A model generated the notes under the pieces. That model searched no databases. It was not told the DNA's origin and was given only the letters and a program-made list of their open reading frames with translations. A DNA stretch of 35,166 bases from Acidimicrobiales bacterium (lineage in GTDB: Bacteria; Actinomycetota; Acidimicrobiia; Acidimicrobiales; MedAcidi-G1): the NCBI GenBank assembly GCA_016845305.1, contig JAERSW010000072.1, positions 1-35,166 of the forward strand. Direction: 5' to 3'. The position numbers were made by a program, and so were the translations under genes. Positions within the stretch are counted from its first letter, which is position 1. Each line of letters begins with the position of its first letter. This document shows, piece by piece, positions 938 to 24,079 of this stretch.

Positions 938-1009
938 ATGGCGAATGACACGGGTGTGATTCCGGGCGGGCGGACCCGGCCCGGCGGGGTGGGGCCGACG
1001 TGTTCCTGA
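938..1009 (+). CDS. Possible 23-codon leaderless upstream ORF overlapping the smc start
   Basis: An ATG at 938 lies 6 nt after the TAGGGT hexamer and opens a 23-codon frame that begins MANDTGVIPGG. It ends with a TGA at 1007-1009, 10 nt inside smc (GTG at 1000) and in a different frame. If transcription starts at about 938, this is the first codon on the mRNA and the smc start would be reached by coupling or by its own G-rich ribosome site (GGGGTGGGG, about 987-995). The peptide resembles nothing I know. It could also be non-coding, with smc having a 60-nt leader. Confidence 0.3.
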   Translation: MANDTGVIPGGRTRPGGVGPTCS

Positions 1010-4000
1010 AGAGCCTCTCCATCAAGGGCTTCAAGTCGTTCGCCGACACGGCGGTGCTGGACATGGAGCCCGGGGTGACCGTCGTGGTCGGCCCCAACGG
1101 CAGCGGCAAGTCCAACGTGGTGGACGCCATCGCCTGGGTGCTCGGCGCCCAGGCCCCCAGCGCCGTGCGGTCCCAGAAGATGGACGACGTCATCTTCGCC
1201 GGCACGGCCACCCGGGCCGCCCTCGGTCGGGCCGAGGTGTCGATCACCGTCGACAACGCCTCGGGGCAGCTCCCGGTGGAGTTCAGCGAGGTCACCATCA
1301 CCCGCACGCTGTTCCGCACCGGGGAGAGCGAGTACGCCATGAACGGGGCCCCGTGCCGGCTGCTCGACATCCAGGAACTGCTGTCCGACGTCGGCGTGGG
1401 CCGGCAGCAGCACGTGATCATCTCGCAGGGACAGATCGACGCCGTGCTGAACGCCCGCCCCGAGGACCGGCGGGCCATCATCGAGGACGCCGCCGGGATC
1501 CTGAAGTACCGGCGTCGCAAGGAGAAGGCCCAGCGCCGCCTCCAGGCCACCGAGGCCAACCTGGACCGCCTCTCCGACCTGCTGCGCGAGGTCCGCCGAC
1601 AGCTCCGTCCGCTGGAGCGGCAGGCCGACGCGGCCCGTCGCCACGGCGACCTGCTGGCCGAGCTCACCGCCCTGCGCCTCCACCGTGCCGGCCGCGAGTT
1701 GGCCACCCTGCGGACCCGGGCCCGCGACGAGGCGGAGACCCGGTCGGCGCTGGCCACCGCCGAGTCCACGCACAACGCCGCCCTGGCCCGCCTCGACGCC
1801 GAGGTGGTGGCCGCCGAGGCCGAGCTGGCCTCGCGGGGCGGCGACGACCTGGGCGACCGGCTGGTCCGGCTCGAGGCGCTGCGGGAGCGCGGCCGCGGCG
1901 TGCGCGGCGTGCTGGTGGAGCGCCTGCGGGGCATCGAGCGGGACCGCTCGGCGCTGGTCTCCCAGCAGGTGGTGGTCGGCCTGGAGGCCGAGTTGGACCG
2001 GTCCGAGGCCGAGATGGCCCGTCTGGAGGCCGAGTCCGAGGAGCTGGCCCCCGACGCCGAGCGGCTCGCCCTGGACGAGACCGAGTTGGCCGCCGACCGG
2101 GCGGCCTTCGAGGTCGACTGGTCGGACGGGGTCCCCGCCCTGGGCGGCCATGCCGCCGAGGCCCGGGGCGAGCTGGGGGTGCTGCGGGCCGCCGTGACCC
2201 AGGCCGATGCCGAGCGGCGACGGGTGGCCGACAGGCTGGCCGCGCTGGAGGAGGCCGCCGACCGGCTGGAGGTGGAGGCGGGGCGCCTGCGGGCCGACCT
2301 GTCCACCGGGGAGACGGCCGAGGAACCGCTGGTCGCCGAGGTGGCGGCCGCCGAGACCCGGGCACACGAAGCGGCGGTGGCCCGCAACGCGGCCTGGGAG
2401 CGGGTGGTGGCGGCCGAGGCCGAGGTCCGCACGGCGACGGCCCGCGTCGACGCCCTCGCCCTGGCCCTCGACGAGGCCCGGTCGCGGGCCGGCGCCGAGC
2501 ACCTGGCCGGCGTGGACGGGGTGCTCGGCACGCTGCTCGACCTGGTCGAGGTCGACGAGGGGTTCGAGGCCGCCTTCGAGGCGGCGGCCGGCTCGGCGCT
2601 GGACGCCGTGGTGGTCGACGGGGTGGACGCGGCCCGTCAGGCGCTGGGAGCCCTGGAGGAGGGCAGGCTGTCGGCGGCCGTCCTGGCCCTCGGAGCAGGG
2701 ACGACCACCGTGCCCGCCCCGCTGGTGGGCGATCCGGTGCGGCCCCACGTGCGACCCCGGATGGGGGGTGGGGCCGCCGGTCTCGACGAGTTGCTGGACC
2801 GCCTGCTCGGGTCGGCCGTCGTCGTCGATGCCCCGCTGGTCGACCTGGTCGACCTGGCCATCGGCCACCCCGAGGCGGTCCTGGTGACCCGCGGTGGCGA
2901 CCGCCTCGGCCCGACCGGCTGGCGGGTCGGGGGCGACGGTCGGGGTGCGACCGGCGCCGCGCTGGCCGAGGCGGAGGGCCGCCTCGCCGCGGCGGAGGCC
3001 GAGCGGGTCGACGCCGCCGGTGCGTTCGACCTCGCCGAGGCGGCCACCTCGGCCGCCGACGACCAGGTGGCCCGGGGCAATCGGGCGCTGGACGAACACG
3101 ACGGCCGGTTCACCGCGGCCGCCGAGGCCCTGCAGCGCCTCCAGGCGGAGCGTCGCGACCTGACCAACGAGGCCGAGGGCCTGCGGAGCCGCCTCGGCGA
3201 GATGGACCAGCGGAGGGCCGACGACGGCCGCCGTGTGGCCGAACTCGAGGAGCGCCTCCCGACGCTGGAGGCCGACGAGGAGGCCTCGCTGGAGGCCGGC
3301 CGTCGCATGGCCGCGGCCCGCAACGCCCTGGAGGAGCGGGCGGCCGGCATCGGCGCCCGACGCACCGGCCACGACGTCCGGGTTGCCGACGTGACGGGCC
3401 GCCTGACCGTGGTCCGGGCCCGTGTGGTCGAGGTCCGGGCCCGGCTCGAGCAGCTGGCCGACGAGCGGGTCGCCGCGGCGGCCCAGCGCGACGACCTGGA
3501 GGGCCGGGAGGCGGCCACCCGGACGCTGGTGGACGCCGTGGACGCCCGCATGGCCGTCGTCGACGCCCGCCTCGACGCGCTCCGGGAGCACCGTCGCCGC
3601 CAGTCCGAGCGGGTGCGGGCCGTGGCCGCCCGCCTCGACGGGCTCCGCCGCGACCGGACCGCAGCGGAGACGGCGCTCCGGGAGGCCCGGGAGCGCTCAT
3701 CCCGTCTCGAGGTGGAACGGGCCGAGACCCGCATGCGGATCGAGGGCATCACCGAGACCATCCGGTCCGAGTTCGACCGGGAGCCCGAGGCGGCGCTCGA
3801 CGCGCCGTGTCCGGAGCTGGCCGACGGCGTGACCCCGGCCGGTCGCATCGCCGAGCTGGAACGCGAGCTGAAGCTGATGGGGCCCATCAACCCGCTGGCC
3901 CTGGCCGAGTTCGACTCGCTCCGGGAGCGCCACGAGTTCCTCCAGGAGCAGCTGGACGACATCCGTGCCACCCGGAAGGAGCTCCGCAAGGTCATCCGGT

Positions 4001-4512
4001 CGGTCGACGAGGAGATCGTCTCGGTGTTCGCCTCGGCCTTCGCCGAGGTGTCCAGCCACTTCGAGGACCTGTTCGAGTCGCTGTTCCCGGGTGGACAGGG
4101 CCGGCTCCGCCTCACCACCCCGGACGACCTGCTGGAGACCGGGCTGGAGGTCGAGGCCCGCCCGTCGGGCAAGAACGTGAAGAAGCTGTCGCTGCTGTCC
4201 GGTGGCGAGCGCTCCCTGACCGCCCTGGCCTTCCTCTTCGCCGTCTTCCGCAGCCGGCCGTCCCCCTTCTACGTGATGGACGAGGTCGAGGCCGCCCTCG
4301 ACGACGTGAACCTCCACCGGTTCCTCGGACTGGTCGACCAGTTCCGCGACGATGCCCAGCTGGTGATCGTCAGCCACCAGAAGCGGACCATGGAGGCCGC
4401 CGACTGCCTCTACGGGGTGTCGATGGCCCCCGGCGGGTCGTCGAAGGTGGTCAGCGAGCGGGTCGGTGCCGAACGGGTGGCCGCCCGCCTGGGCGTGCTC
4501 GCCAACGGCTGA
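1000..4512 (+). CDS. smc: Chromosome segregation protein SMC
   Basis: The 1170-residue SMC ATPase would, with ScpA and ScpB (not in the window), form the bacterial condensin that organises and segregates the chromosome. Residues 31-38 are the Walker A motif GPNGSGKS in the N-terminal head. The Q-loop region QQHVIISQGQID lies near 136-147. Two long coiled-coil arms, rich in Ala, Glu and Arg, flank a hinge at about 505-645. The C-terminal head carries KLMGPINPLALAEF, the ABC signature LSGGERS near 1066 and Walker B with D-loop YVMDEVEAALDD near 1091. Length and domain order are normal for the family. The GTG start places FLKSLSIKGFKSF at the N-terminus as in other SMC proteins. ftsY and ffh downstream are the usual neighbours, but a two-component system and a protease are inserted between. 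Confidence 0.98.
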   Translation: MFLKSLSIKGFKSFADTAVLDMEPGVTVVVGPNGSGKSNVVDAIAWVLGAQAPSAVRSQKMDDVIFAGTATRAALGRAEVSITVDNASGQLPVEFSEVTITRTLFRTGESEYAMNGAPCRLLDIQELLSDVGVGRQQHVIISQGQIDAVLNARPEDRRAIIEDAAGILKYRRRKEKAQRRLQATEANLDRLSDLLREVRRQLRPLERQADAARRHGDLLAELTALRLHRAGRELATLRTRARDEAETRSALATAESTHNAALARLDAEVVAAEAELASRGGDDLGDRLVRLEALRERGRGVRGVLVERLRGIERDRSALVSQQVVVGLEAELDRSEAEMARLEAESEELAPDAERLALDETELAADRAAFEVDWSDGVPALGGHAAEARGELGVLRAAVTQADAERRRVADRLAALEEAADRLEVEAGRLRADLSTGETAEEPLVAEVAAAETRAHEAAVARNAAWERVVAAEAEVRTATARVDALALALDEARSRAGAEHLAGVDGVLGTLLDLVEVDEGFEAAFEAAAGSALDAVVVDGVDAARQALGALEEGRLSAAVLALGAGTTTVPAPLVGDPVRPHVRPRMGGGAAGLDELLDRLLGSAVVVDAPLVDLVDLAIGHPEAVLVTRGGDRLGPTGWRVGGDGRGATGAALAEAEGRLAAAEAERVDAAGAFDLAEAATSAADDQVARGNRALDEHDGRFTAAAEALQRLQAERRDLTNEAEGLRSRLGEMDQRRADDGRRVAELEERLPTLEADEEASLEAGRRMAAARNALEERAAGIGARRTGHDVRVADVTGRLTVVRARVVEVRARLEQLADERVAAAAQRDDLEGREAATRTLVDAVDARMAVVDARLDALREHRRRQSERVRAVAARLDGLRRDRTAAETALREARERSSRLEVERAETRMRIEGITETIRSEFDREPEAALDAPCPELADGVTPAGRIAELERELKLMGPINPLALAEFDSLRERHEFLQEQLDDIRATRKELRKVIRSVDEEIVSVFASAFAEVSSHFEDLFESLFPGGQGRLRLTTPDDLLETGLEVEARPSGKNVKKLSLLSGGERSLTALAFLFAVFRSRPSPFYVMDEVEAALDDVNLHRFLGLVDQFRDDAQLVIVSHQKRTMEAADCLYGVSMAPGGSSKVVSERVGAERVAARLGVLANG

Positions 4513-14375: not shown

Positions 14376-14729
14376 ATGCCGAGCCACCCCTTCCCGCGCC
14401 TCCTCGTCGCCGTCGTCCTCGCGGTGGTGGCCGTGGGGTCGGCCTGTGCCGGCACGCCGCCCGAGGTTCCCGGCGCAGCCGACGGCACGGCCGATCCCGC
14501 CCTCGTCCGGGGTCGGGAGGTCTGGTCCCGGTCGTGCTCGTCGTGCCACGCCCCTGACGGATCGGGGGGACGGGGACCCTCGGTCCGTGGCGTGGAGGCC
14601 CGATTCCCGACGGTCGCCGACCAGGTCGACCTGGTGTCCGACGGTCGGGGCTCGATGCCCGGCTTCGGCGGCCGCTACACGGCCGAGGAGCTCGAGGCCG
14701 TCGTCCGCTACACCCGCGAGGTGCTCTGA
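14376..14729 (+). CDS. Secreted or lipid-anchored monohaem cytochrome c
   Basis: The 117-residue protein begins with a hydrophobic export signal ending near VGSAC24, a borderline lipobox. The mature part is a small class I cytochrome c: haem attachment CSSCH at 54-58, a GxG linker and an axial Met94 in GSMPGFGG, then the C-terminal helix AEELEAVVRYTREVL. It would carry electrons outside the membrane; its partner is unknown. No cytochrome maturation or oxidase gene is near. The start is chosen from the divergent -10 spacing and the signal peptide; longer frames upstream have no supporting features. Confidence 0.9.
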   Translation: MPSHPFPRLLVAVVLAVVAVGSACAGTPPEVPGAADGTADPALVRGREVWSRSCSSCHAPDGSGGRGPSVRGVEARFPTVADQVDLVSDGRGSMPGFGGRYTAEELEAVVRYTREVL

Positions 14730-14753
14730 CCGTCGGTTGCTCGGGGCCCGTCG

Positions 14754-14775
14754 GCCCATGTGGACGCCCATGTGG
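14754..14775 (+). promoter_or_regulatory. Direct repeat just upstream of the -35, possible activator site
   Basis: GCCCATGTGG occurs twice, at 14754-14763 and 14766-14775, with a 12-bp period (about one helical turn). It ends 4 nt before the -35 hexamer. OmpR/PhoB-type regulators bind tandem half-sites of about 11 bp at such positions; the link to the regulator in this window is only a hypothesis. Confidence 0.4.
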
Positions 14776-14779
14776 CCGG

Positions 14780-14808
14780 TGGACAGGGAGCGGGAGCCGA
14801 TCTATCTT
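14780..14808 (+). promoter_or_regulatory. Full -35/-10 promoter for the giant repeat protein
   Basis: TGGACA (14780-14785, five of six to TTGACA), a 17-bp spacer and TATCTT (14803-14808). The predicted start near 14815 leaves a 38-nt leader with GGAGGG and GAGG before ATG 14853. This is the only promoter in the window where I see a good -35. Confidence 0.6.
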
Positions 14809-14852
14809 CGAGACGACCTCGATGTCGGGCGAAGACGAGGAGGGCCGAGGCG

Positions 14853-17800
14853 ATGGGGATCAGGGGACGGCGGACGCTCTTCCGAACGGTCCTGATGGCG
14901 GGCCTGGTCACCGTGATGGTGCCGACCGCCGCCGTGGCCCAGGACTTCGGTGGGGCACCTCCAGGCGGTGGAGGCGGCGGCTTCGATCCCGGTCCTGCTC
15001 CCGCTCCTGAGCCCGCGTTCGAGGCGCCTGCTCCCGCTCCTGAGCCCGCGTTCGAGGCGCCTGCTCCCGCTCCTGAGCCCGCGTTCGAGGCGCCTGCGCC
15101 GGAGCCTGAGCCCGCGTTCGAGGCGCCTGCGCCGGAGCCTGCTGGTGATCCCGGTGGTGGTGATCCCGGTGGTGGTGAGGCGCCTGCGCCGGAGCCTGCT
15201 GGTGATCCCGGTGGTGGTGATCCGGGTGGTGGTGAGGCGCCTGCGCCGGAGCCTGCTGGTGATCCCGGTGGTGGTGATCCGGGTGGTGGTGAGGCGCCTG
15301 CTGGTGATCCCGGTGGTGGTGAGGCGCCTGCTGGTGATCCCGGTGGTGGTGATCCGGGTGGTGGTGAGGCGCCTGCTGGTGATCCCGGTGGTGGCGAATC
15401 CAAGGGCGATGCGCCTGCTGGTGGCGAGGGTGGTTTCCCGGATCCTGGTGGTGCGGCTGGTGGCGGCGATGCGCCGGCTGGTGGTGACCTTCCGGATCCC
15501 GGTGGTGCGGCTGGTGGCGATGCGCCGGCTGGTGGTGAGGGTGGTTTCCCGGATCCCGGTGGTGGTGCGCCTGAGGGTGGTGCCGAGGGTGGTTTCGGTC
15601 CGGCGCCTGAGGGTGGTGCGCCTGAGGGTGGTGCCGAGGGTGGCTTCGTTCCAGCGCCCGGCGATGGTCCTCGACCCGAGGACGCCCCGTCCGGCCTGAT
15701 CTTCAACGAGGGTGGCGAGGGTCCGGCCTTCGTGCCGCAGCAGGCCGATCCGAACAGTGCGGCCGGCCAGGTGCTCGACAACCCCGACGACTACCGACCC
15801 CCGTCCGTCGACGACTTCTTCGGTGCTGCCGGACCAGAGGGGGGCGACCCCTTCGGCCCGTCCGGCGGCTTCGGCCAGCCACCGGAGGGCGGAGAGGGCG
15901 GCTTCGGCCAGCCACCGGAGGGCGGAGAGGGTGGCTTCACCCCGGAGGGTGCCCCGGAGGACGGCCCGGGTCCGGCCCCGGAGGATGGCTTGGGTCCGGC
16001 TCCCGAGGGCGGTCCTGCCTTCATCGACCCGTTCGCCGGTGATGACGGCAACGCGCCGCCGCGGTTCGATCCCAACGCCTTCGGACCCGCCGCGTTCGGT
16101 CCTGGAGACGGCGAGGGCGGCGAGGATGGTGAAGGCGGCGAGGGCGCGCCCGGCCCCAGCCCGTTCGGCGGGTTCCTGGCCGCACCGGACCACGCCGAGT
16201 CGTTCGACGACTTCGGGGAGCAGCCGGGCAATGCCGGCAACTTCTTCTTCCAGAACGTCCTCGGTCCGGCGGCCCCGGGTGCCGGTGGCTTCGGGCCCGA
16301 ACCGCCCGGCGACGGCGAGGGTGGCTTCGGCGAACCGCCGGAGGGAGCCCCGGCGCCTGCCGACGGCGAGTTCGGTCCGGCCGGCCCACCGCCCGATGGC
16401 GAGGGCTGGCAGGGCCCGACGTTCGAGTTCGACGACGACGGTGGCCTGAAGGGCGACTTCTTCGCTCCGCAGCAGGCCTTCAGCCTCGGCCAGCCGCCGG
16501 GACCCGGTGGAGCGCCGGGCGACGGTGAGGGTGGTCCGCCGCCCGACCCGCTCGGCCAGTTCTTCGGCGACTTCCTCGGACCCGAGGGGCCGGAGGGCGA
16601 GCCCGGCGCGGCCGGTCCCGAGGGGGGTCCGGGTCTCGTCGAGGGCGTCCAGGCCTTCTTCGACCCGAACCAGGAGGGCGGCTTCAAGCCCAGCGACTTC
16701 TTCGAGGACGCCCGCGGCCACGCCGGTCCGGCCCCGTTCGCCCCCGGCGCCGAGCCTCCGCTGGGCGCCGATGGCGAGCCCGTCGAGGGCTTCGCCCCCG
16801 GCGGGCCGGAGGGCGGCTTCGTGCCCGGCCTGGCCTTCGAGGACCGGGGCGTCGACCAGTTCCAGCCTCCGGTGGCCTTCGACATGGGCGAGGGCGGCCA
16901 GGCCATGGCCTGGGAGGACGGCATGAGCCAGGTCCGTCGCGACGACGGCTCGATGAACGTCTTCTGGGGCGACGGCAAGGCCCTCGAACGCGAGGTGCTC
17001 GACGACGGCGCCATCCGCCAGGTCAATCCCGACGGCACCGAGATGCTCATCGCCGCCGACGGATCGGCCCAGTTCACCTCGATCACCGGTGACGCCGTCG
17101 TCCGCGAGCGCACCGACGACGGTGGCTTCCGGACCACCAGGCCCGACGGCGGCCTCGTCTTCGAGGGTGAGGACGGGGCGAAGTCCTTCTTCGAGCCGTC
17201 CGGCTGGTCCCGCGAGCAGGTCGTCGACCCGGAGACCGGGGCCATGATGACCCGAGGGTCCGACGGCCTCGTCGAGCTGGTCAACCCAGACGGCACGTTC
17301 AACCGGATCAACCCCGACGGCACCCAGGACCAGGCCTTCTTCGGTGAGGAGGGCGAGCTCATCACCCAGAACGGTGACGGCTCGCAGAGCGTCGTCCACG
17401 CCGACGGCACCGAGGAGTTCCAGGACGCCTCGGGCTACGGCGGCAAGAAGGTCCAGTCCGACGACGGCTCCTTCGTGACCCTGATGACCGACGGTGCCTC
17501 CAAGATGGAGGCCGAGGACGGCAGTTGGGCCATCGAGGTGGCCCCCAACGGCGAGCAGACGGTCACGTCCACGCTCGAGGACGGGACCATCCAGAAGAAC
17601 CTGCCCGACGGTGGCGTGCAGCGGTACAACCCGGAGATCGGGGCGACCACGTTCACCACGCCCGAGGGTGGCGACTACATCACCCGGGAGAACCCCGACG
17701 GCAGCGTCGTGGTGACCGATCCGACCGGCATGGTCACCGAGTCTGATCCGGTCACCGGCAGCACCCACGTGACGTTCGCCGACGGTTCGGTCCAGACGAC

Positions 17801-18809
17801 CGAGCGCCTCGAGGACGGCTCGCTGGCCACGACGCTCCCGACCGGAGACGTGGTGGTCACCGCTCCGGACGGCAGCCAGAGCGTGGTGACGGCCGAGGGC
17901 GAGGCGGCGACGACGGAGGTGACCGAACTCGAGGACGGCAGCCAGCTGATGGTGGCCACCAAGGCCGACGGCACCCAGAAGTCCACCCAGGTCGCCGACG
18001 ACGGGTCGCTGACCACGTCGTGGAGCGTGGCTGGACCCGCCGACGACGCTCCGGCGGCCGGCGACGGCAGCGCCGAGGGGGATCCGCCCGAGGGCGCCGG
18101 CTTCGCCGACGGCGAGGCGCCCGACGCTCCGCCGGTGCCCAAGGGCCTCCAGGTCGACCCGGAGAGCGGGCAGACCACGGTGCTGCTCAGCAGCGGCGAG
18201 GCCGTGGGCCACACCCTCGGCGAGGACGGCGTCCTGACCCTGCAGTCGACGGCCACCGACCCGCCGCCGGGCGGCGCCGACGGTGTGCCCGACGCCGAGG
18301 GCGAGGGCGCCGACGGGGAGCCCGACGAGGCGGCCGACGCCGCGGCGACCCGCCTGGCCGTCATCAACCCGGCGGTCGGCGAGGTCATCACCGAGGGCGA
18401 CGTGACCCTGGTCGAGTCGACGTTCACCGACACCGGGGGCGTGGCCATGGAGATCGCCCCGCTACCCGGCGAGCCCGACGCGCCGCCGGCCGAGGTGGCC
18501 ATCTCCGCGGACGGCACCCAGCAGGCCATCACCAGCCCGACCGGGGACACGGCCACGGCCACGACCTCGGACACCGGCGTGGTGATCGCCATGGAGGGCG
18601 CCCCGATGCAGGCCACGCTCGACAACCTGGATCCGGGTGACCAGCAGCCGTTGGTCGCCGCCGACGGGGCGGCGGTGACGGCCGCACCGGCGGCCGACGG
18701 GTCGATGGCCTTCCTCGACGCCGATGGCAACCCGGCGACCAAGGCGGACGGAACGGCCTATACGGCCGACGACATGGCGGCCATGGTCGTCGCCTTCGAC
18801 GAGGAGTGA
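14853..18809 (+). CDS. Giant secreted Pro/Gly/Glu/Phe-rich protein with DG-strand repeats
   Basis: The 1318-residue protein has a signal peptide with likely cleavage after AVA29. Region 1 (about 31-210) is tandem PAPEPAFEA units and then EPAGDPGGGDPGGGE units. Region 2 (about 210-675) is acidic and disordered, full of GGFG, PPEGGEGGF and FGPxP motifs. Region 3 (about 678-1060) holds about 25 short strands, each ended by a DG turn, e.g. NPDGT, ADGSA, PDGGL, with a period near 9-10 residues. Region 4 (about 1060-1318) is Asp/Ala/Thr-rich. I see no cysteine, membrane anchor or sorting motif. By eye region 3 resembles PDGT-type repeats that make single-layer beta-sheets, as in the Tcp10/CPAP G-box. 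It is probably a surface or matrix protein; no function is recognised. The start is set by GAGG and the signal peptide. Confidence 0.85.
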   Translation: MGIRGRRTLFRTVLMAGLVTVMVPTAAVAQDFGGAPPGGGGGGFDPGPAPAPEPAFEAPAPAPEPAFEAPAPAPEPAFEAPAPEPEPAFEAPAPEPAGDPGGGDPGGGEAPAPEPAGDPGGGDPGGGEAPAPEPAGDPGGGDPGGGEAPAGDPGGGEAPAGDPGGGDPGGGEAPAGDPGGGESKGDAPAGGEGGFPDPGGAAGGGDAPAGGDLPDPGGAAGGDAPAGGEGGFPDPGGGAPEGGAEGGFGPAPEGGAPEGGAEGGFVPAPGDGPRPEDAPSGLIFNEGGEGPAFVPQQADPNSAAGQVLDNPDDYRPPSVDDFFGAAGPEGGDPFGPSGGFGQPPEGGEGGFGQPPEGGEGGFTPEGAPEDGPGPAPEDGLGPAPEGGPAFIDPFAGDDGNAPPRFDPNAFGPAAFGPGDGEGGEDGEGGEGAPGPSPFGGFLAAPDHAESFDDFGEQPGNAGNFFFQNVLGPAAPGAGGFGPEPPGDGEGGFGEPPEGAPAPADGEFGPAGPPPDGEGWQGPTFEFDDDGGLKGDFFAPQQAFSLGQPPGPGGAPGDGEGGPPPDPLGQFFGDFLGPEGPEGEPGAAGPEGGPGLVEGVQAFFDPNQEGGFKPSDFFEDARGHAGPAPFAPGAEPPLGADGEPVEGFAPGGPEGGFVPGLAFEDRGVDQFQPPVAFDMGEGGQAMAWEDGMSQVRRDDGSMNVFWGDGKALEREVLDDGAIRQVNPDGTEMLIAADGSAQFTSITGDAVVRERTDDGGFRTTRPDGGLVFEGEDGAKSFFEPSGWSREQVVDPETGAMMTRGSDGLVELVNPDGTFNRINPDGTQDQAFFGEEGELITQNGDGSQSVVHADGTEEFQDASGYGGKKVQSDDGSFVTLMTDGASKMEAEDGSWAIEVAPNGEQTVTSTLEDGTIQKNLPDGGVQRYNPEIGATTFTTPEGGDYITRENPDGSVVVTDPTGMVTESDPVTGSTHVTFADGSVQTTERLEDGSLATTLPTGDVVVTAPDGSQSVVTAEGEAATTEVTELEDGSQLMVATKADGTQKSTQVADDGSLTTSWSVAGPADDAPAAGDGSAEGDPPEGAGFADGEAPDAPPVPKGLQVDPESGQTTVLLSSGEAVGHTLGEDGVLTLQSTATDPPPGGADGVPDAEGEGADGEPDEAADAAATRLAVINPAVGEVITEGDVTLVESTFTDTGGVAMEIAPLPGEPDAPPAEVAISADGTQQAITSPTGDTATATTSDTGVVIAMEGAPMQATLDNLDPGDQQPLVAADGAAVTAAPAADGSMAFLDADGNPATKADGTAYTADDMAAMVVAFDEE
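15003..15134 (+). repeat. 33-bp tandem repeat, four copies, in-frame
   Basis: Units begin at 15003, 15036, 15069 and 15102 and encode an 11-residue PEPAFEAPAPA-type motif. The copies are nearly identical in DNA, suggesting recent slippage or recombination. Confidence 0.9.
15135..15396 (+). repeat. 57-bp tandem repeat with shorter derivatives, in-frame
   Basis: Copies start at 15135, 15192 and 15249; 30- and 45-bp derivatives follow. They encode EPAGDPGGGDPGGGEAPAP-type units. Gly is mostly GGT and Ala/Pro often GCT/CCT, unlike the C- and G-ending codons of neighbouring genes. Confidence 0.9.
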
Positions 18810-18814
18810 GGGCG

Positions 18815-19510
18815 ATGGACGTGACGAGGCGGGGCCGACGACGGTGGACCGGTCGCTCGACGGTCGGCGTGCTCGCCCTGGCACTCGTGGCCGGGGCATG
18901 TGGCGGGGGCGGCGACGCCGAGGAGGCCGTGGTCCCGACCACGGTGGCCACCACGGCCGCTCCGACCACCACGACCGCGGCGCCGACCACCGAGACGGAG
19001 GCCACCACGACCGTGGCGCCGACCACGGAGACGGAGGCCACCACGACGGTGGTGACGACCACCACCGCCGAGCCGTGCCTGCCCGCACCCAACGCCTCGT
19101 GCGCCGGGGCGGACCTGGCTGGCGCCAACCTGGCCGGGATGATCCTGCCCGGCATCGACCTCTCGGGGGCCAACCTCGAGGGTGCCCTGCTGAACGGGGC
19201 CATGCTGGCCGGCGCCGACCTCTCGGGCTCCAACCTGGCGGGCGCCACCCTGTCCAGCACCAACCTGGCCGGCGCCGACCTGTCGGGGGCCATCGCGGCG
19301 GGCGCCGTCTTCTACCGGACCAACCTGACCAGCGCGAACCTCGTCCTGACCGACCTGACGGCCGCCGTGCTCATGGAGGCCGACATGAAGTCGGTCAACA
19401 TGACCGGGGCGTCGGTCCAGGGCCTGGTCGAACGGCGGGCCTTCTGGTGCAGCACCATCTACGTGGACGGCACCCTGAAGAACGACAGCTGCCAGATCGC
19501 CACCGACTGA
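18815..19510 (+). CDS. Pentapeptide-repeat lipoprotein
   Basis: The 231-residue protein has an export signal ending in VAGAC, a likely lipid-attachment Cys. A Thr-rich stalk follows, with two APTTETEATTTV copies. Then come about 20 A(D/N)LxG pentapeptides (CAGADLAGANLAG onward), which fold as a right-handed quadrilateral beta-helix. The C-terminal cap has two Cys (FWCSTIYVDGTLKNDSC) that may pair with each other or with the two Cys before the repeats. It should be displayed outside the membrane. It begins at the stop of the giant repeat gene: an in-frame GTG at 18806 overlaps that stop, but GAGGAG (18801-18806) is better placed for ATG 18815. The two genes are probably co-transcribed. Fold family is clear; role unknown. 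Confidence 0.88.
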   Translation: MDVTRRGRRRWTGRSTVGVLALALVAGACGGGGDAEEAVVPTTVATTAAPTTTTAAPTTETEATTTVAPTTETEATTTVVTTTTAEPCLPAPNASCAGADLAGANLAGMILPGIDLSGANLEGALLNGAMLAGADLSGSNLAGATLSSTNLAGADLSGAIAAGAVFYRTNLTSANLVLTDLTAAVLMEADMKSVNMTGASVQGLVERRAFWCSTIYVDGTLKNDSCQIATD

Positions 19511-19517
19511 TCGGGTT

Positions 19518-19533
19518 CCGCCGGCCCCGGCGG
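19518..19533 (+). terminator. Hairpin after the pentapeptide-repeat gene, no T-tract
   Basis: CCGCCGG (19518-19524) and CCGGCGG (19527-19533) are complementary; the innermost pair must open. It lies 8 nt after the stop. Confidence 0.35.
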
Positions 19534-19599
19534 GCTGACCCGGGTCGGCTGGGCCGGACAGCCGGGGCCCGGACGCGACGCATCGTCACAGGCGGCCCA

Positions 19600-19605
19600 T
19601 AGGTT
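19600..19605 (+). promoter_or_regulatory. -10 element TAGGTT for comM–dprA
   Basis: TAGGTT predicts a start near 19612 and a leader of about 58 nt ending in the GGAGGA ribosome site at 19661-19666. Confidence 0.5.
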
Positions 19606-19620
19606 CCTCCCCGGACGCTC

Positions 19621-19666
19621 GGAGTCGGCGCGACACGACTCCTCCCGACACCGAGGTGGGGGAGGA
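19621..19666 (+). promoter_or_regulatory. Mutually exclusive hairpins covering the comM ribosome site
   Basis: Stem A pairs GGAGTCG (19621-19627) with CGACTCC (19636-19642). Stem B pairs TCCTCCC (19640-19646) with GGGAGGA (19660-19666), which is the Shine-Dalgarno sequence. They share 19640-19642, so A would free and B would hide the ribosome site. No ligand or regulator is known. Confidence 0.4.
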
Positions 19667-19669
19667 ACC

Positions 19670-21187
19670 GTGCTCGCCACCATCCATGCCGCAACCCTTC
19701 ACGGGGTCAGCGGCCATCCGGTCCGCGTCGAGGTCCACGTGGCCGACGGCCTACCGGCGTTCACCGTCGTCGGCCTGCCCGACGCCTCCTGCCGGGAGGC
19801 GCGCGACCGGGTCCGGGCCGCACTCGAGTCCAGCGGCCTGCCCTGGCCGCCCCGCCGGATCACCGTCAACCTGGCGCCCACCGGCGTCCCCAAGGCCGGG
19901 TCGGTCCTCGACCTGCCCATGGCCGTCGGGCTCCTCGTGGCCTGCGGCGAGCTCGAGCCCGGGCAGGTCGACGGCCTGGGGTTCCTCGGAGAGCTGGGCC
20001 TCGACGGCTCGATCCGACCGGTACCGGGGGTGCTGCCGCTGGTGGATGCCGTCGAGGTGCCCGGCATGGTCGTCCCGGTGGCCAACGGCGCCGAGGCCGC
20101 CCTGATCGACGACCGACGGGTGCGGGTGGCCGACGACCTCCGCGGCCTCGTCCTGGCCCTGCGCGGCGACGGGGAGTGGGCGACCCCCGAGGTGGCGGAA
20201 CCGTCGCCGGTCGACGGGGGTGGTCCCGACATGGGCGACGTCCGGGGCCAGCGGTTCGCCCGGTTCGCCCTGGAGGTGGCCGCGGCCGGCGCCCACCACC
20301 TGCTCCTGGTCGGACCACCCGGCGCGGGCAAGAGCATGCTGGCCCGCCGGCTCCCCGGGCTGCTGCCCGACCTGGCGCCCGACGAGGCCCTCCAGGCCAC
20401 GAGGGTCCGTTCGGCGGCCGGCGAGGCGCTCCCGGTCGACGGGCTGGTCCGGCGACCTCCCTGGCGTGCCCCGCACCATGGGGCGTCCCCGGCGGCACTG
20501 GTCGGCGGCGGGAGCGGGACGATGCGGCCCGGGGAGGTGAGCCTGGCCCACGGAGGGGTGCTCTTCCTCGACGAGTTGGGCGAGTTCGCGCCCAGCGCGT
20601 TGGAGACGCTCCGGCAGCCGTTGGAGGACGGCACGGTGCGGGTCAGCCGGGCGGGTGCCAGCGCCGAGTATCCGGCCCGGGTGCTCCTCGTGGCGGCCAT
20701 GAACCCCTGCCCGTGTGGAGGCTCGGCGGCCCCCGGCGGCTGCCGGTGCCCGTCCACGGTGCGGGCCCGCTACGTCCGGCGGATCTCCGGACCGCTGCTC
20801 GACCGCTTCGACCTCCGGATCGCCGTCGACCGGCCGGATCCGGTCGACCTGCTGTCCGGCGCCTCCGGGGAGTCGTCGGCCGACGTCGGCCGCCGGGTCG
20901 CCTCGGCACGTGGCCGGGCCGTCGCCCGGGGCGTGGACGCCAACGGGGCGCTCGATCCCGCGGCCCTGCGGGAGGCCGCACCGTTGTCGGAGGCGGCGGT
21001 CCGGCGCCTCGAGGCGGAGTTGCACGCCGGTCGGCTCAGCGCCCGTGGGCTGCACCGCGTCCGGTCGGTGGCCCTCACCGTGGCCGACCTGCTCGGCCGG
21101 GACGGTCCCCTCGACGTCGACCTGGTCGAGGTGGCCCTGGGCCTGCGGATCGACCCGTTCCGATCGGAGGTGGCCGGTGTCCGGTGA
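19670..21187 (+). CDS. comM: ComM/YifB-type Mg-chelatase-like AAA+ ATPase
   Basis: ComM in Vibrio is a hexameric helicase that drives branch migration during integration of transformed DNA. The 505-residue protein has the N-terminal Lon-like fold (GHPVRVEVHVADGLPAFTVVGLPDASCREARDRV...NLAPTGVPKAGS), Walker A GPPGAGKS (215-222), Walker B GGVLFLDELGEF (about 295-306), the MNPCPCG...CRC cysteine cluster and the arginine-rich RRISGPLLDRFDLRI sensor region, then the C-terminal Mg-chelatase helical domain. dprA overlaps it downstream. Such pairs are conserved even where natural transformation is unproven, so no competence claim is made. Confidence 0.96.
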   Translation: MLATIHAATLHGVSGHPVRVEVHVADGLPAFTVVGLPDASCREARDRVRAALESSGLPWPPRRITVNLAPTGVPKAGSVLDLPMAVGLLVACGELEPGQVDGLGFLGELGLDGSIRPVPGVLPLVDAVEVPGMVVPVANGAEAALIDDRRVRVADDLRGLVLALRGDGEWATPEVAEPSPVDGGGPDMGDVRGQRFARFALEVAAAGAHHLLLVGPPGAGKSMLARRLPGLLPDLAPDEALQATRVRSAAGEALPVDGLVRRPPWRAPHHGASPAALVGGGSGTMRPGEVSLAHGGVLFLDELGEFAPSALETLRQPLEDGTVRVSRAGASAEYPARVLLVAAMNPCPCGGSAAPGGCRCPSTVRARYVRRISGPLLDRFDLRIAVDRPDPVDLLSGASGESSADVGRRVASARGRAVARGVDANGALDPAALREAAPLSEAAVRRLEAELHAGRLSARGLHRVRSVALTVADLLGRDGPLDVDLVEVALGLRIDPFRSEVAGVR

Positions 21188-22346: not shown

Positions 22347-24079
22347 CCGGGTGGACGACGGCACGCGCACCCTCGGGCCGCCCATCGGGCCTTCCGCCGA
22401 GCCCCCAGTCGGGCCGATGGCGGGGCCGGATCGTCGGCATCGCCGTGGCGGTCGGGCTGTCCGTGGTCGCCGGCCTGACGACGCCCGTCCCGGTCGCCGC
22501 GGCGGCGGTGGTCGACCGGGACGACGGCGACGCGGTCCACCACGAGGCGCCGGTCCCCGGCGAGCCCATCGACGGGTTCCGTCCCCCCGGTTCCGAGTGG
22601 GGGGCCGGGAACCGTGGTCACGAGTACGCCACCGGGCGCGGGGATCCGGTCGCCGCCTCGGCCCCGGGGACCGTGGTGTTCGCCGGCCACGTCGGCGGTC
22701 GACTCCACGTGACGGTGTGGCATCCCGACGGCCTCCGGACCACCTACGCCTTCCTGGCCTCGGTTTCGGTGGCCGAGGGCCAGGTGGTGGTCGGCGGGAC
22801 GGTGGTCGGGACCTCGGCGGGACGGTTCCACTTCACCGTCCGCGACGCCGAGGACCGGTACCTCGACCCACTCTCCGTGCTGGGGAGGAAGGTCCGCTGG
22901 GTCGCCGAGCTGGTGCCCCACGACGATCCCCGCGTCGAGGCGGCGGCCCGGGCGCTACGACGACTGCACGAGAAGTCGATCCTGGAACGGCTGGGGGGCT
23001 GGGCCTCGGCGGCGGGAAAGTGGGTCGGCGACCGGGCAGAGGACGTCGGGCGCTTCGCCGTCGTCGTCGCGCTCGAGGTGGCCCACCGGGTCGCGTGGGC
23101 CACCATGCGGACCATCGTCGACTCCGACGAGTGGATCCTGCTCGGCCTCCGGGTGGCTCGGGCCATGCTGGGCGCCGAGGAGTGCACGCCGGACTCGGTG
23201 CACCCGCCGCCTCCGGAGGGCGACCGGGTCGCCGTGCTGGTCGGTGGCCTCGACTCCGGCCACGCCGGCGAGGCGTTCGCCGCCCTCGACCTCGTCGGCC
23301 TGGGCGTGGCCCCGACGGACGTGGTCGCCTTCTCCTACGAGGGCGGCCGGTCGCCCGACCCGAGCCTCGGCGGGCTGCGGTGGCTCGATCCGGTCCCGGT
23401 CACCGTGCACGACGACGAGTCCACCCGTCGATCGGTCGCCGACTCGGCGGTCCGGCTGGCCGACCTCCTGGTCCGCCTGGGCGACCTCCGCCCGCTGGCC
23501 ACCCTCGAGGTCTACGGCTTCTCCCTCGGGGGGATGGTGGCGGTGACGGCCGCCGTCGACGTCCACGCCCGGCCCGACCCGCCGGCGCTGGCCATCCTGA
23601 CCTTCGCCAGCCCGCACGGGGGCCTGGCCCTGGCCGAGCTCCTCGACGCGGTCGACGCCATCCCCGGGGTCGACGCCCTGGCCCGGAAGCTGGGCCTGCC
23701 CGGTGGTCGGCCGGTGGTCGACGACCTCGCCGACGGGTTGGCCGTGGAGGTGCCCGACGGCCTCCGGGTGCTCAGCGTGGCCGCCCGGAGCGACCCGCTG
23801 GTCCCGGCCACCCGGTCCCGGCTCCTCGGAGCGACCGAGGCCATCGTCGACACCGACGGCTTCGACCACGACTCGATGGTCGGGCACTCCCAGACCCACC
23901 GGGAGGTCGAGCTGTTCCTGGCCGGCCGACCGAAGCGGTGTCGCCCGTTGCTCACCCGGGTGGCCGACGTGGTGGTCCCCGAGGCCATCGACGAGGTCCA
24001 CGGCTTCCTGGCCGGCAACCGCGATGCCGACGGCCTGCTGGACGGCGACGGCTCGAAGAAGAAGGGGAAGAAGAAGTAG
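22343..24079 (+). CDS. Fusion of a degenerate LytM (M23) domain with an alpha/beta hydrolase
   Basis: The 578-residue exported protein starts with ATG overlapping the dprA stop (ATGA). A signal segment lies at about 29-52. Residues about 60-180 follow the M23 pattern but the metal ligands are altered: [14 protein letters not shown] replaces HRGxDxAAPxGTPV, TTYAFL replaces xxYxHL and GRFHF replaces PHLHF. Only one core His is kept, so the domain is likely non-enzymatic, like EnvC or NlpD activators. After a helical linker (about 190-285), the second domain shows an alpha/beta hydrolase with nucleophile Ser394 in YGFSLGGM, Asp484 in ARSDPLVP and His509 or His515 (FDHDS, VGHSQ). It ends SKKKGKKK. 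M23 genes sit before rpsB in other actinobacteria; this fusion I do not recognise. Substrate unknown. Confidence 0.82.

Follow-up and report, generated by a model that had tools for sequence, protein, structure and literature searches.

The window (the whole stretch of DNA that was analysed, 35,166 nucleotides) carries a large gene and, next downstream on the same strand, a gene for a pentapeptide-repeat lipoprotein. The features of this pair are listed below by position; all lie on the plus strand.

14780..14808 (+): promoter-like site TGGACA-17-TATCTT, 5′ of the large gene; assigned by consensus match alone, which is no proof of function
14853..18809 (+): large gene, encoding a 1318-residue, probably exported protein with no cysteine
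14853..14942 (+): Sec-type signal peptide, residues 1-30, recognised by eye
14943..16883 (+): acidic low-complexity arm, residues 31-677, with APAPEPAFE, GDPGGGEAPA and PEGG/GGF spacers (from composition and charge)
16203..16265 (+): arm motif 1, residues 451-471, FDDFG..FFFQNVLG (from alignment)
16398..16481 (+): arm motif 2, residues 516-543, GWQGPTFEF..GDFFAPQQAF (aligned in 4/4 relatives: L030, L033, L034, L037)
16644..16718 (+): arm motif 3, residues 598-622, FFDPNQEGGF..FFEDARG (same 4/4 relatives)
16848..16922 (+): junction motif 4, residues 666-690, QFQPPVAFD..AMAWEDG, entering the sheet (same 4/4 relatives)
16884..17999 (+): DG-turn core, residues 678-1049, modelled as 38 short strands (AlphaFold; alignment of 24 sequences)
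18000..18806 (+): C-terminal region, in which further strands and linkers occur together with a terminal piece that is beta-rich and conserved (AlphaFold, conserved blocks)
18408-18794 (+): the beta-rich terminal piece, residues 509-637 of the model of 678-1318 (AlphaFold, conservation)
18815..19510 (+): 231-residue pentapeptide-repeat lipoprotein (PF00805, lipobox AGAC, translation)

The large protein and its low-complexity arm

The reading frame at 14853-18809 (+) translates into 1318 residues with zero cysteines, confirming the cysteine-free protein of that length described in the first-pass annotation. Its domain order is a signal peptide, a 647-residue arm, the DG-turn core (678-1049) and a conserved C-terminal region. 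The signal peptide, read by eye, is MGIRGRRTLFRTVLMAGLVTVMVPTAAVAQ, and comparable N-terminal signals were seen by eye in all ten relatives with a readable start (of 12 inspected; L046 and L098 could not be read). Judged from these signals, the protein is probably exported and would leave the cell through the Sec route. The promoter-like site occurs once within 14700-19700, compared to a mean of 0.0 (sd 0.2) in shuffled sequences. A search of the large protein against NCBIfam returned a single match, at 16.8 bits and under the cut-off of 19. Additional copies of the core were sought in the same genome, and only the 14853-18809 locus was recovered, plus two weak minus-strand matches there. TSP3_bac, a first-guess identity, was set aside, as its own-genome search gave no match.

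The arm (31-677) is made up mostly of glycine (28.0%), proline (20.4%), alanine (13.8%), glutamate (9.7%), aspartate (8.7%) and phenylalanine (8.0%), with 119 acidic residues against 8 basic ones. It contains 13 GGF and 28 FG/GF, bearing out the earlier description of a GGF/PEG region with Phe-Gly spacers. The short repeats of the arm vary freely among relatives. Between the window and L037, the arm motifs are retained and the spacers are swapped from a PEG type to an MGMGM type. Motif 1 is the least widespread of the four, being alignable in L030 and L037, less clearly so in L033, and absent from the visible part of L034. The retention of Phe-rich motifs while spacers change lends some support to the suggestion that the arm is sticky. 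The arm may be organised as stickers (the four conserved motifs) joined by replaceable spacers, and its binding target would be either the arm itself or something outside.

The DG-turn core and its resemblance to the G-box

Residues 678-1060 contain 26 DG dipeptides, far above the mean of 5.2 (sd 2.0, maximum 12) obtained from 2000 shuffles. Their spacing is most often 9, and the periodicity that the first-pass annotation had proposed to look for is present, with autocorrelation peaks of the family profile at lags 9 and 38. The core could be aligned over 24 sequences with position-specific conservation, the relatives being 29-85% identical to the window. The AlphaFold model of the core, built from 13 sequences, reached a pLDDT of 89.8 and a pTM of 0.57, and displays 38 strands in 372 residues, four per 38-39 residues. 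The annotation had counted about 25 DG-turn strands, likened to a long single-layer sheet: the model supports the sheet, but the number of predicted strands is higher. The core is predicted to fold as an open beta-ribbon, one layer thick, in which about 38 strands run antiparallel. Its length would be about 17 nm, scaled from the reported 9.2 nm of the roughly 20-strand CPAP domain, and the ribbon would extend by further strands in the C-terminal region. The overall twist is uncertain, since the pTM is 0.57, Foldseek TM-scores to G-box chains are low and the rmsd in VIA-align is often 9-14 Å.

Structural comparison pointed to the G-box of CPAP/SAS-4 (Tcp10_C), a domain of a centriole protein of animals, a resemblance that had been proposed by eye. 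G-box chains account for 7 of the 8 VIA-align rows with Z of at least 8 for the core (range 8.1-9.2), the eighth being an Rhs chain. Among them, 4bxr was matched with Z 9.2 (rmsd 13.5, 175 aligned) and 4by2 with Z 8.6 (rmsd 4.8, 136 aligned). These values are modest, because models without a clear match typically reach a best Z of 7-8. Foldseek TM-scores of the core to G-box chains were only 0.12-0.25 when normalised to the query and 0.24-0.53 when normalised to the target. Meanwhile, the sequence profile of the core matched CPAP at 1e-14, which strengthens the by-eye resemblance. For the model of 678-1318, SAS-4 4mpz was the top row (Z 9.4, rmsd 3.3, 118 aligned), in a table that barely bears on the C-terminal piece. 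That model had an overall pLDDT of 73.2 and a pTM of 0.36, with ten-residue means in the terminal piece mostly of 60-91. The C-terminal region displayed no Pfam family at E 0.001.

The window protein scored 20.4 bits against Tcp10_C (PF07202) as a whole and 34.6 bits as the core, not reaching the Pfam cut-off of 36. Five relatives were scanned singly: L019 (96.1 bits) and L027 (55.7) passed this cut-off, and L004 (31.7), L013 (25.0) and L021 (35.2) fell below it. When the core of L019 was scrambled with DG positions fixed, one of three scrambles scored 20.3 bits and two gave no match, as did the reversed sequence. The score of L019 therefore indicates that the Tcp10_C match is not due to DG spacing alone, and the scramble score indicates that the 20.4 bits of the whole window protein mean little by themselves. 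The window core itself falls just short of the cut-off. The annotation's remark that no such protein was known is not supported as worded, since the repeat region of L019 and L027, and also that of a Streptomyces AAWKG protein, pass Tcp10_C.

The core resembles the CPAP G-box in its predicted single-layer antiparallel sheet, with glycine turns about every nine residues. The core differs in being bacterial, in following a signal peptide and in its four-strand superperiod of 38-39 residues. A PRxxPxP motif of STIL type was absent from the large protein when its own sequence was scanned. In the CPAP/STIL G-box literature (PMC3776556, PMC5366329), the CPAP G-box has about 20 strands, compared to about 38 predicted in the window core, and is reported to be predominantly monomeric in solution (PMC3776556), which speaks against self-assembly through the sheet.

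The paired lipoprotein and variation among relatives

The likely start of the lipoprotein gene is the ATG at 18815, five bases past the stop of the large gene. Its product consists of a signal with the lipobox AGAC after a hydrophobic stretch (found by pattern and by eye), a Thr/Ala/Glu linker, and a beta-helix with two cysteines on either side. It is a clear member of PF00805 (88.8 bits, cut-off 20.2), differing from pentapeptide repeat proteins by its lipobox and linker and scoring far under the cut-offs of the named equivalogs that it matched, such as Qnr and HetL. Apart from pentapeptide families, it weakly matched cytochrome c551 (17.2 bits, cut-off 118). A lipobox-like motif was present in all 21 lipoproteins that were read; in L045 the first pattern match lies upstream, with LGAC further on.

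The pairing of the two genes is well supported. Of 29 copies in the family, 22 have the lipoprotein gene as their immediate downstream neighbour in the same orientation, as do 3/3 copies of a second family, which makes 25 of the 32 copies having downstream DNA in view. The annotation's link between the large protein and the beta-helix lipoprotein encoded by the next gene is reinforced by this count. The seven copies with no adjoining lipoprotein (in genus g4, those of L038-L042 and L086; in L047, the second of the tandem copies) indicate that the pairing is not obligatory. The pair occurs in several settings, being followed by comM/dprA, by rpsB/tsf or by an epimerase-like gene. Among 48 genomes of the family, 20 carry the core and a close lipoprotein, 1 the core only, 3 the lipoprotein only and 24 neither, where a close lipoprotein is one with E below 1e-40, a threshold picked after inspecting the list. 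Of the three lipoprotein-only genomes, two have a contig that breaks off immediately upstream, with the end of the large gene still readable at its edge; in the other one, the contig stops at this point.

As a domain, the core could be aligned in 21 of the 48 family genomes and in 3 genomes of the second family. Outside the core, these proteins are variable in design. The window protein's lack of cysteine is not general in the family, as relatives carry up to 66 of these residues. Some replace the arm by up to 33 Cys-x13-Cys hairpins (L041, L042), which from their sequence apparently form a disulfide-stapled extension of the sheet. Others (L057-L059, L061) have Ala-rich insertions that separate strands in the C-terminal part. 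Among the 25 of 33 Pfam families that were listed, aRib was matched by 11 of the 24 members (at best 6.3e-8; below cut-off in L019) and CopK in 5/24 (best 3e-6; barely above the cut-off of 23.8 in L019 and L021, spanning 24-26 of 70 positions). MiiA was matched in 5/24 members (best 6.5e-7). As these matches are partial or short, aRib, CopK and MiiA were set aside as identities.

A candidate two-gene surface module

Because the large gene usually lies beside the lipoprotein gene, the two products probably form an unrecognised cell-surface structure. The explanation that we prefer, and judge just about probable, is a two-gene module in which an exported ribbon is kept at the surface by the lipoprotein. 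The lipoprotein, tethered to the membrane by a lipidated cysteine and a flexible linker, would bind the ribbon or the C-terminal piece, keeping the large protein at the surface. That the large protein is exported, binds the lipoprotein, is anchored at the surface and serves as a coat or adhesive is what we infer; the reading frame, the repeats, the conservation in the family and the gene pairing were observed, and the fold was predicted.

The ribbon might instead be released freely, as an adhesin or as part of a matrix, with the lipoprotein aiding folding, wall crossing or assembly rather than anchoring. Consistent with this, inspection by eye and Pfam revealed no sorting signal, wall-binding domain or membrane helix beyond the signal peptide in the large protein, and Cys-rich relatives might need extracellular folding help. 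Nevertheless, we consider release fairly unlikely: the window protein is cysteine-free, the Cys-rich L038-L042 are among the copies with no adjacent lipoprotein, and the Pfam and NCBIfam matches of the lipoprotein include no chaperone family. It is barely credible that the gene is a low-complexity expansion with no selected function. The freely varying short repeats of the arm would suit such an origin, but the core is conserved over two families, and so are the arm motifs and the lipoprotein pairing.

Two other folds were weighed for the core. A shell of the Rhs/YD type, as in secreted toxins or effectors, is suggested by the top Foldseek row (RhsA 7q97, E 7.2e-10), followed by several Rhs and teneurin chains, by an Rhs chain that VIA-align superposed along 337 residues (Z 8.2, rmsd 13.1), and by a short profile stretch matching an Rhs core at 1.2e-4. 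This is very improbable, as RHS was absent both from the whole protein (one Pfam family at E 1) and from the core (four at E 0.1), the neighbours are the lipoprotein and housekeeping genes, and the C-terminal region, itself lacking a Pfam family, is conserved rather than variable among close relatives. We also find it improbable that the core is a beta-propeller with about ten blades, each made of four strands and 38 residues. The superperiod fits such blades, and designed Cake propellers were the top profile matches (Cake8 2.8e-30 compared to 1e-14 for CPAP; in a search with just the window protein, Cake6 1.1e-8 compared to 1.3e-7 for CPAP). However, Foldseek TM-scores to Cake/Scone chains were 0.10-0.14 with rmsd above 20 Å, and G-box chains head the VIA-align table. 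No Cake/Scone chain was among the 50 VIA-align rows listed for the core, an absence that excludes nothing.

To our knowledge, single-layer sheets with no hydrophobic core are rare, OspA and the CPAP G-box being the best known. An exported protein of this type in bacteria, almost twice the length of the CPAP domain and having stapled-looking natural relatives, would represent a surface architecture of a new sort and possibly a new material as well. It is possible, rather than probable, that they represent an undescribed class of bacterial surface fibres: an open single-layer ribbon with no hydrophobic core, tens of nanometres long, serving as a modular chassis on which a dedicated beta-helix lipoprotein docks in most cases. 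One actinobacterial order would hold three builds of it, namely the sticker-and-spacer arm of the window, the stapled extension of L041/L042 with up to 33 hairpins, and the Ala-rich inserts between C-terminal strands of L057-L059 and L061. Experiments could now ask whether these are bacterial relatives of the centriolar G-box or a fold that arose twice.

OspA is a bacterial surface protein with an exposed single-layer sheet, and Borrelia OspA variants were present in the VIA-align table of the core at Z about 5-7. OspA is itself a lipoprotein and has globular caps, whereas here ribbon and lipoprotein are encoded by two genes. MORN repeats and Rhs/teneurin YD sheets, also present in the structural table, are likewise long hairpin sheets. 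Their repeat motif differs from the DG-turn motif, and neither MORN nor RHS was among the four Pfam families of the window core at E 0.1. Among the papers listed for the G-box, bacterial Tcp10_C, single-layer sheets and pentapeptide-repeat lipoproteins, we found no bacterial G-box-like exported protein and no description of this gene pair, with subscription journals mostly outside reach. Work that came up for PF07202 dealt, by title, with basal bodies of Giardia and with milk whey, and searches for AAWKG and a prokaryotic TCP10 domain returned none. The core matched no phage records, and the best row in a viral structure library had an E of 1.6e-5, with query TM-scores of at most 0.23.

The AAWKG family protein of Streptomyces is reminiscent of the window protein in being actinobacterial and having Tcp10_C-type repeats (64.1 bits), with 30.6% identity over two pieces. 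Its gene differs in having WXG100 genes and those for type VII secretion as neighbours, and no pentapeptide lipoprotein is annotated within 3 kb of it in a gene table that is possibly incomplete. Ten plasmid records matched the core, all from Streptomyces, and seven of these are annotated as AAWKG family.

The locus and the sequence of the big protein

The genome of the window comprises 2.9 Mb in 136 contigs, of which the window is one (35,166 bases). Its housekeeping genes, ordered by eye and presumably smc, ftsY, ffh, rpsP, trmD, rplS and yraN, then comM, dprA, rpsB, tsf, pyrH, frr, dxr and ispG, follow an order that looks actinobacterial. Two plus-strand genes separated by five bases sit between a small cytochrome c gene and comM:

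14376-14729, small cytochrome c gene immediately preceding the big one (PF13442, 50.9 bits)
14780-14808, promoter-like site before the first gene of the pair (single site)
14853-18809, plus strand, big gene, 1318-residue protein
18815-19510, plus strand, pentapeptide-repeat lipoprotein gene (PF00805), 231-residue protein

A cytochrome c gene also lies upstream of the big gene of one relative (L028); the upstream side is out of view in many other copies.

As the first-pass annotation stated, the big protein contains no cysteine. Its N-terminal region (the arm, residues 31-677), described there as Phe-Gly-type, is indeed rich in Gly, Pro, Ala, acidic residues and Phe, with 119 acidic against 8 basic residues. 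The proposed DG-turn repeat also held, with 26 DG in residues 678-1060 against a shuffle mean of 5.2 (sd 2.0, maximum 12, n = 2000), and the family profile repeats at lags of 9 and 38. The DG excess, the composition and these lags indicate that the noted features are genuine and lie well outside what chance would give.

A DG-turn domain predicted to resemble the G-box

Judged by its sequence, the core (residues 678-1049) is a defined domain. Across 24 aligned sequences, DG, G and other positions are invariant, and indels are few until the C-terminal end. Searching with the core alone gave matches in 20 of 61 genomes, its own included. Profile searches detected it in 21 of 48 genomes of the window's family (5 of 6 genera), in at least 10 of 298 genomes of an order sample (at least 7 from the same family and at least 3 from a second) and in at least one of 246 genomes of a phylum sample, namely the window's own; the order and phylum counts are lower bounds, since at most 6 and 7 candidates, respectively, were scored per genome. 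A scan of named genomes yielded 12 loci. The named relatives are labeled Acidimicrobiales, Acidimicrobiaceae, Acidimicrobiia, Actinomycetota or Candidatus Microthrix, and several are, going by their sample names, presumably marine. Of 26 reading frames from relatives (L028-L052), 17 lie on a contig that starts inside the gene. Repeats probably break the assemblies, so public data will under-count the big gene.

The AlphaFold model of the core (13 sequences; pLDDT 89.8, pTM 0.57) has 38 strands, mostly grouped as three short and one longer per 38-39 residues. Its top Foldseek rows were Rhs, the CPAP G-box, designed propellers, an axoneme protein and teneurins. When structures were realigned, G-box entries took ranks 1-5, 7 and 8 (Z 8.1-9.2), so that the G-box likeness previously seen by eye is supported by the predicted model. 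A longer model was poorer overall (pLDDT 73.2, pTM 0.36), and its first match was SAS-4 (4mpz; Z 9.4, rmsd 3.3 A, 118 aligned). In the realignment one Rhs chain reached Z 8.2, and MORN, teneurin and OspA ranked lower. Designed propellers were the strongest matches in a sequence search of solved structures; this complicates a simple reading, and the fold cannot be named from sequence scores by themselves. We consider a Rhs-like toxin shell and a propeller unlikely. The type of fold is already known from G-box, OspA, MORN and Rhs sheets. The CPAP domain is reported to be a single-layer sheet of ~20 antiparallel strands with type I turns between them (PMC3776556) and to be ~9.2 nm long (PMC5366329). 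Scaled from it, the modeled window core would be an estimated ~17 nm long.

The Pfam model of the CPAP/SAS-4 G-box, Tcp10_C, matched all 24 aligned core members with E values no higher than 0.1 (best 2.9e-31). The annotation's remark that it knew of no such protein is not supported as worded: two of five relatives scanned singly pass the Pfam cut-off. The window protein falls below it and is for that reason not filed under Tcp10_C. In the phylum, Tcp10_C was found in 3 of 198 genomes at E 0.001 (one over the cut-off) and in none of 14 control genomes, with a 35-position model that missed the window's own gene; by this search the family is rare there. A Streptomyces plasmid (NZ_CP108601.1) likewise encodes Tcp10_C-type repeats, in an AAWKG family protein (positions 946-4251 of locus L091; 64.1 bits, above the cut-off) that has WXG100 and type VII secretion genes as neighbors.

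Pairing with the lipoprotein gene

Among 30 core-bearing reading frames, L028 runs off its contig end, and 29 could be judged for a downstream neighbor. The lipoprotein had been suggested as a partner, and a pentapeptide lipoprotein indeed comes next on the same strand in 22 of these, its open frame at most 12 bases past the big-gene stop in 21. The exception on spacing (L036) has a run of N inside the big gene, and the lipoprotein follows the remainder, 2.4 kb on. The seven unpaired copies are L038-L042 and L086, all from one genus, and the second tandem copy of L047. The lipoproteins have a lipobox, a linker and most of the helix in common; the partners of L051 and L052 are more distant.

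By genome (n = 48), 20 had both genes, one (G028) the core only, three the lipoprotein only and 24 neither, at a lipoprotein threshold (E 1e-40) picked after the list was seen; the choice matters, as a looser limit of E 1e-5 brings in weaker pentapeptide matches, present in 45 of the 48. In two lipoprotein-only genomes the big-gene end lies at the contig edge, and the third cannot be judged. As the genomes are related, these counts are not independent. The stronger argument for pairing is that it recurs in two families and amid different neighboring genes; in the second family the lipoprotein adjoins in 3 of 3 copies.

Variable regions around the core and a possible surface ribbon

The arm spacers of the window and L037 are unrelated (PEG against MGMGM type). 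Four blocks are alike despite them: FDDFG..FFFQNVLG, GWQGPTFEF..GDFF.PQ..F, FF(D/N)PN.EGGF..FFEDARG and QFQPPVAFD. Blocks 2-4 were present in all four relatives aligned pairwise (L030, L033, L034, L037); block 1 was found in L030 and L037, weak in L033 and not seen in L034, whose contig may start inside the arm. Strict patterns for blocks 1-4, which were too narrow, matched 2, 5, 0 and 6 of 10 sequences. A sticker-and-spacer protein would show such a pattern, as would short binding motifs.

Other relatives differ more. The open frames of L041 (genome G028) and L042 (G032) encode 1834 and 1838 residues, with 1334 and 1341 residues before the core that contain 65 and 66 cysteines. Successive cysteines form exact Cys-x13-Cys pairs 32 and 33 times (shuffle means 1.6, maxima 7 and 8), and a D/N/S-G lies midway between the two cysteines in 29 of the 32 pairs of L041 and 32 of the 33 of L042. 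The commonest cysteine period, 14 plus 24, equals the core's 38-residue unit. Disulfides closing DG hairpins would give this pattern, suggesting that the sheet continues ahead of the core as a stapled ribbon, possibly a natural disulfide-stapled single-layer sheet. Pfam gave no family for the pre-core part of L041 or L048. In L048-L050, L099 and L100, a different Cys-rich repeat (CLxRGGxW..W.YCYEDDGS..W) stands in the arm's place, alone or additionally. The C-terminal regions of L057, L058, L059 and L061 extend for ~1000 residues, with very Ala-rich, probably helical blocks between conserved strands. A Sec-like signal was seen by eye at the N-terminus of all 10 relatives with a readable start.

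Read together, these facts fit best with a surface ribbon: the big protein would be exported to the surface and docked there by the lipoprotein, and its outer part, apparently swapped between lineages, might act in coat, adhesion or aggregation. In the leading alternative, the big protein would be released as a matrix component and the lipoprotein would be its helper. Neither an exported G-box-like ribbon in bacteria nor this gene pair turned up in the literature searched, outside which most subscription journals lie.

Downstream of dprA in the window, a frame at ~22350-24079 seemingly fuses M23-like peptidase and alpha/beta-hydrolase-like parts (named by eye).
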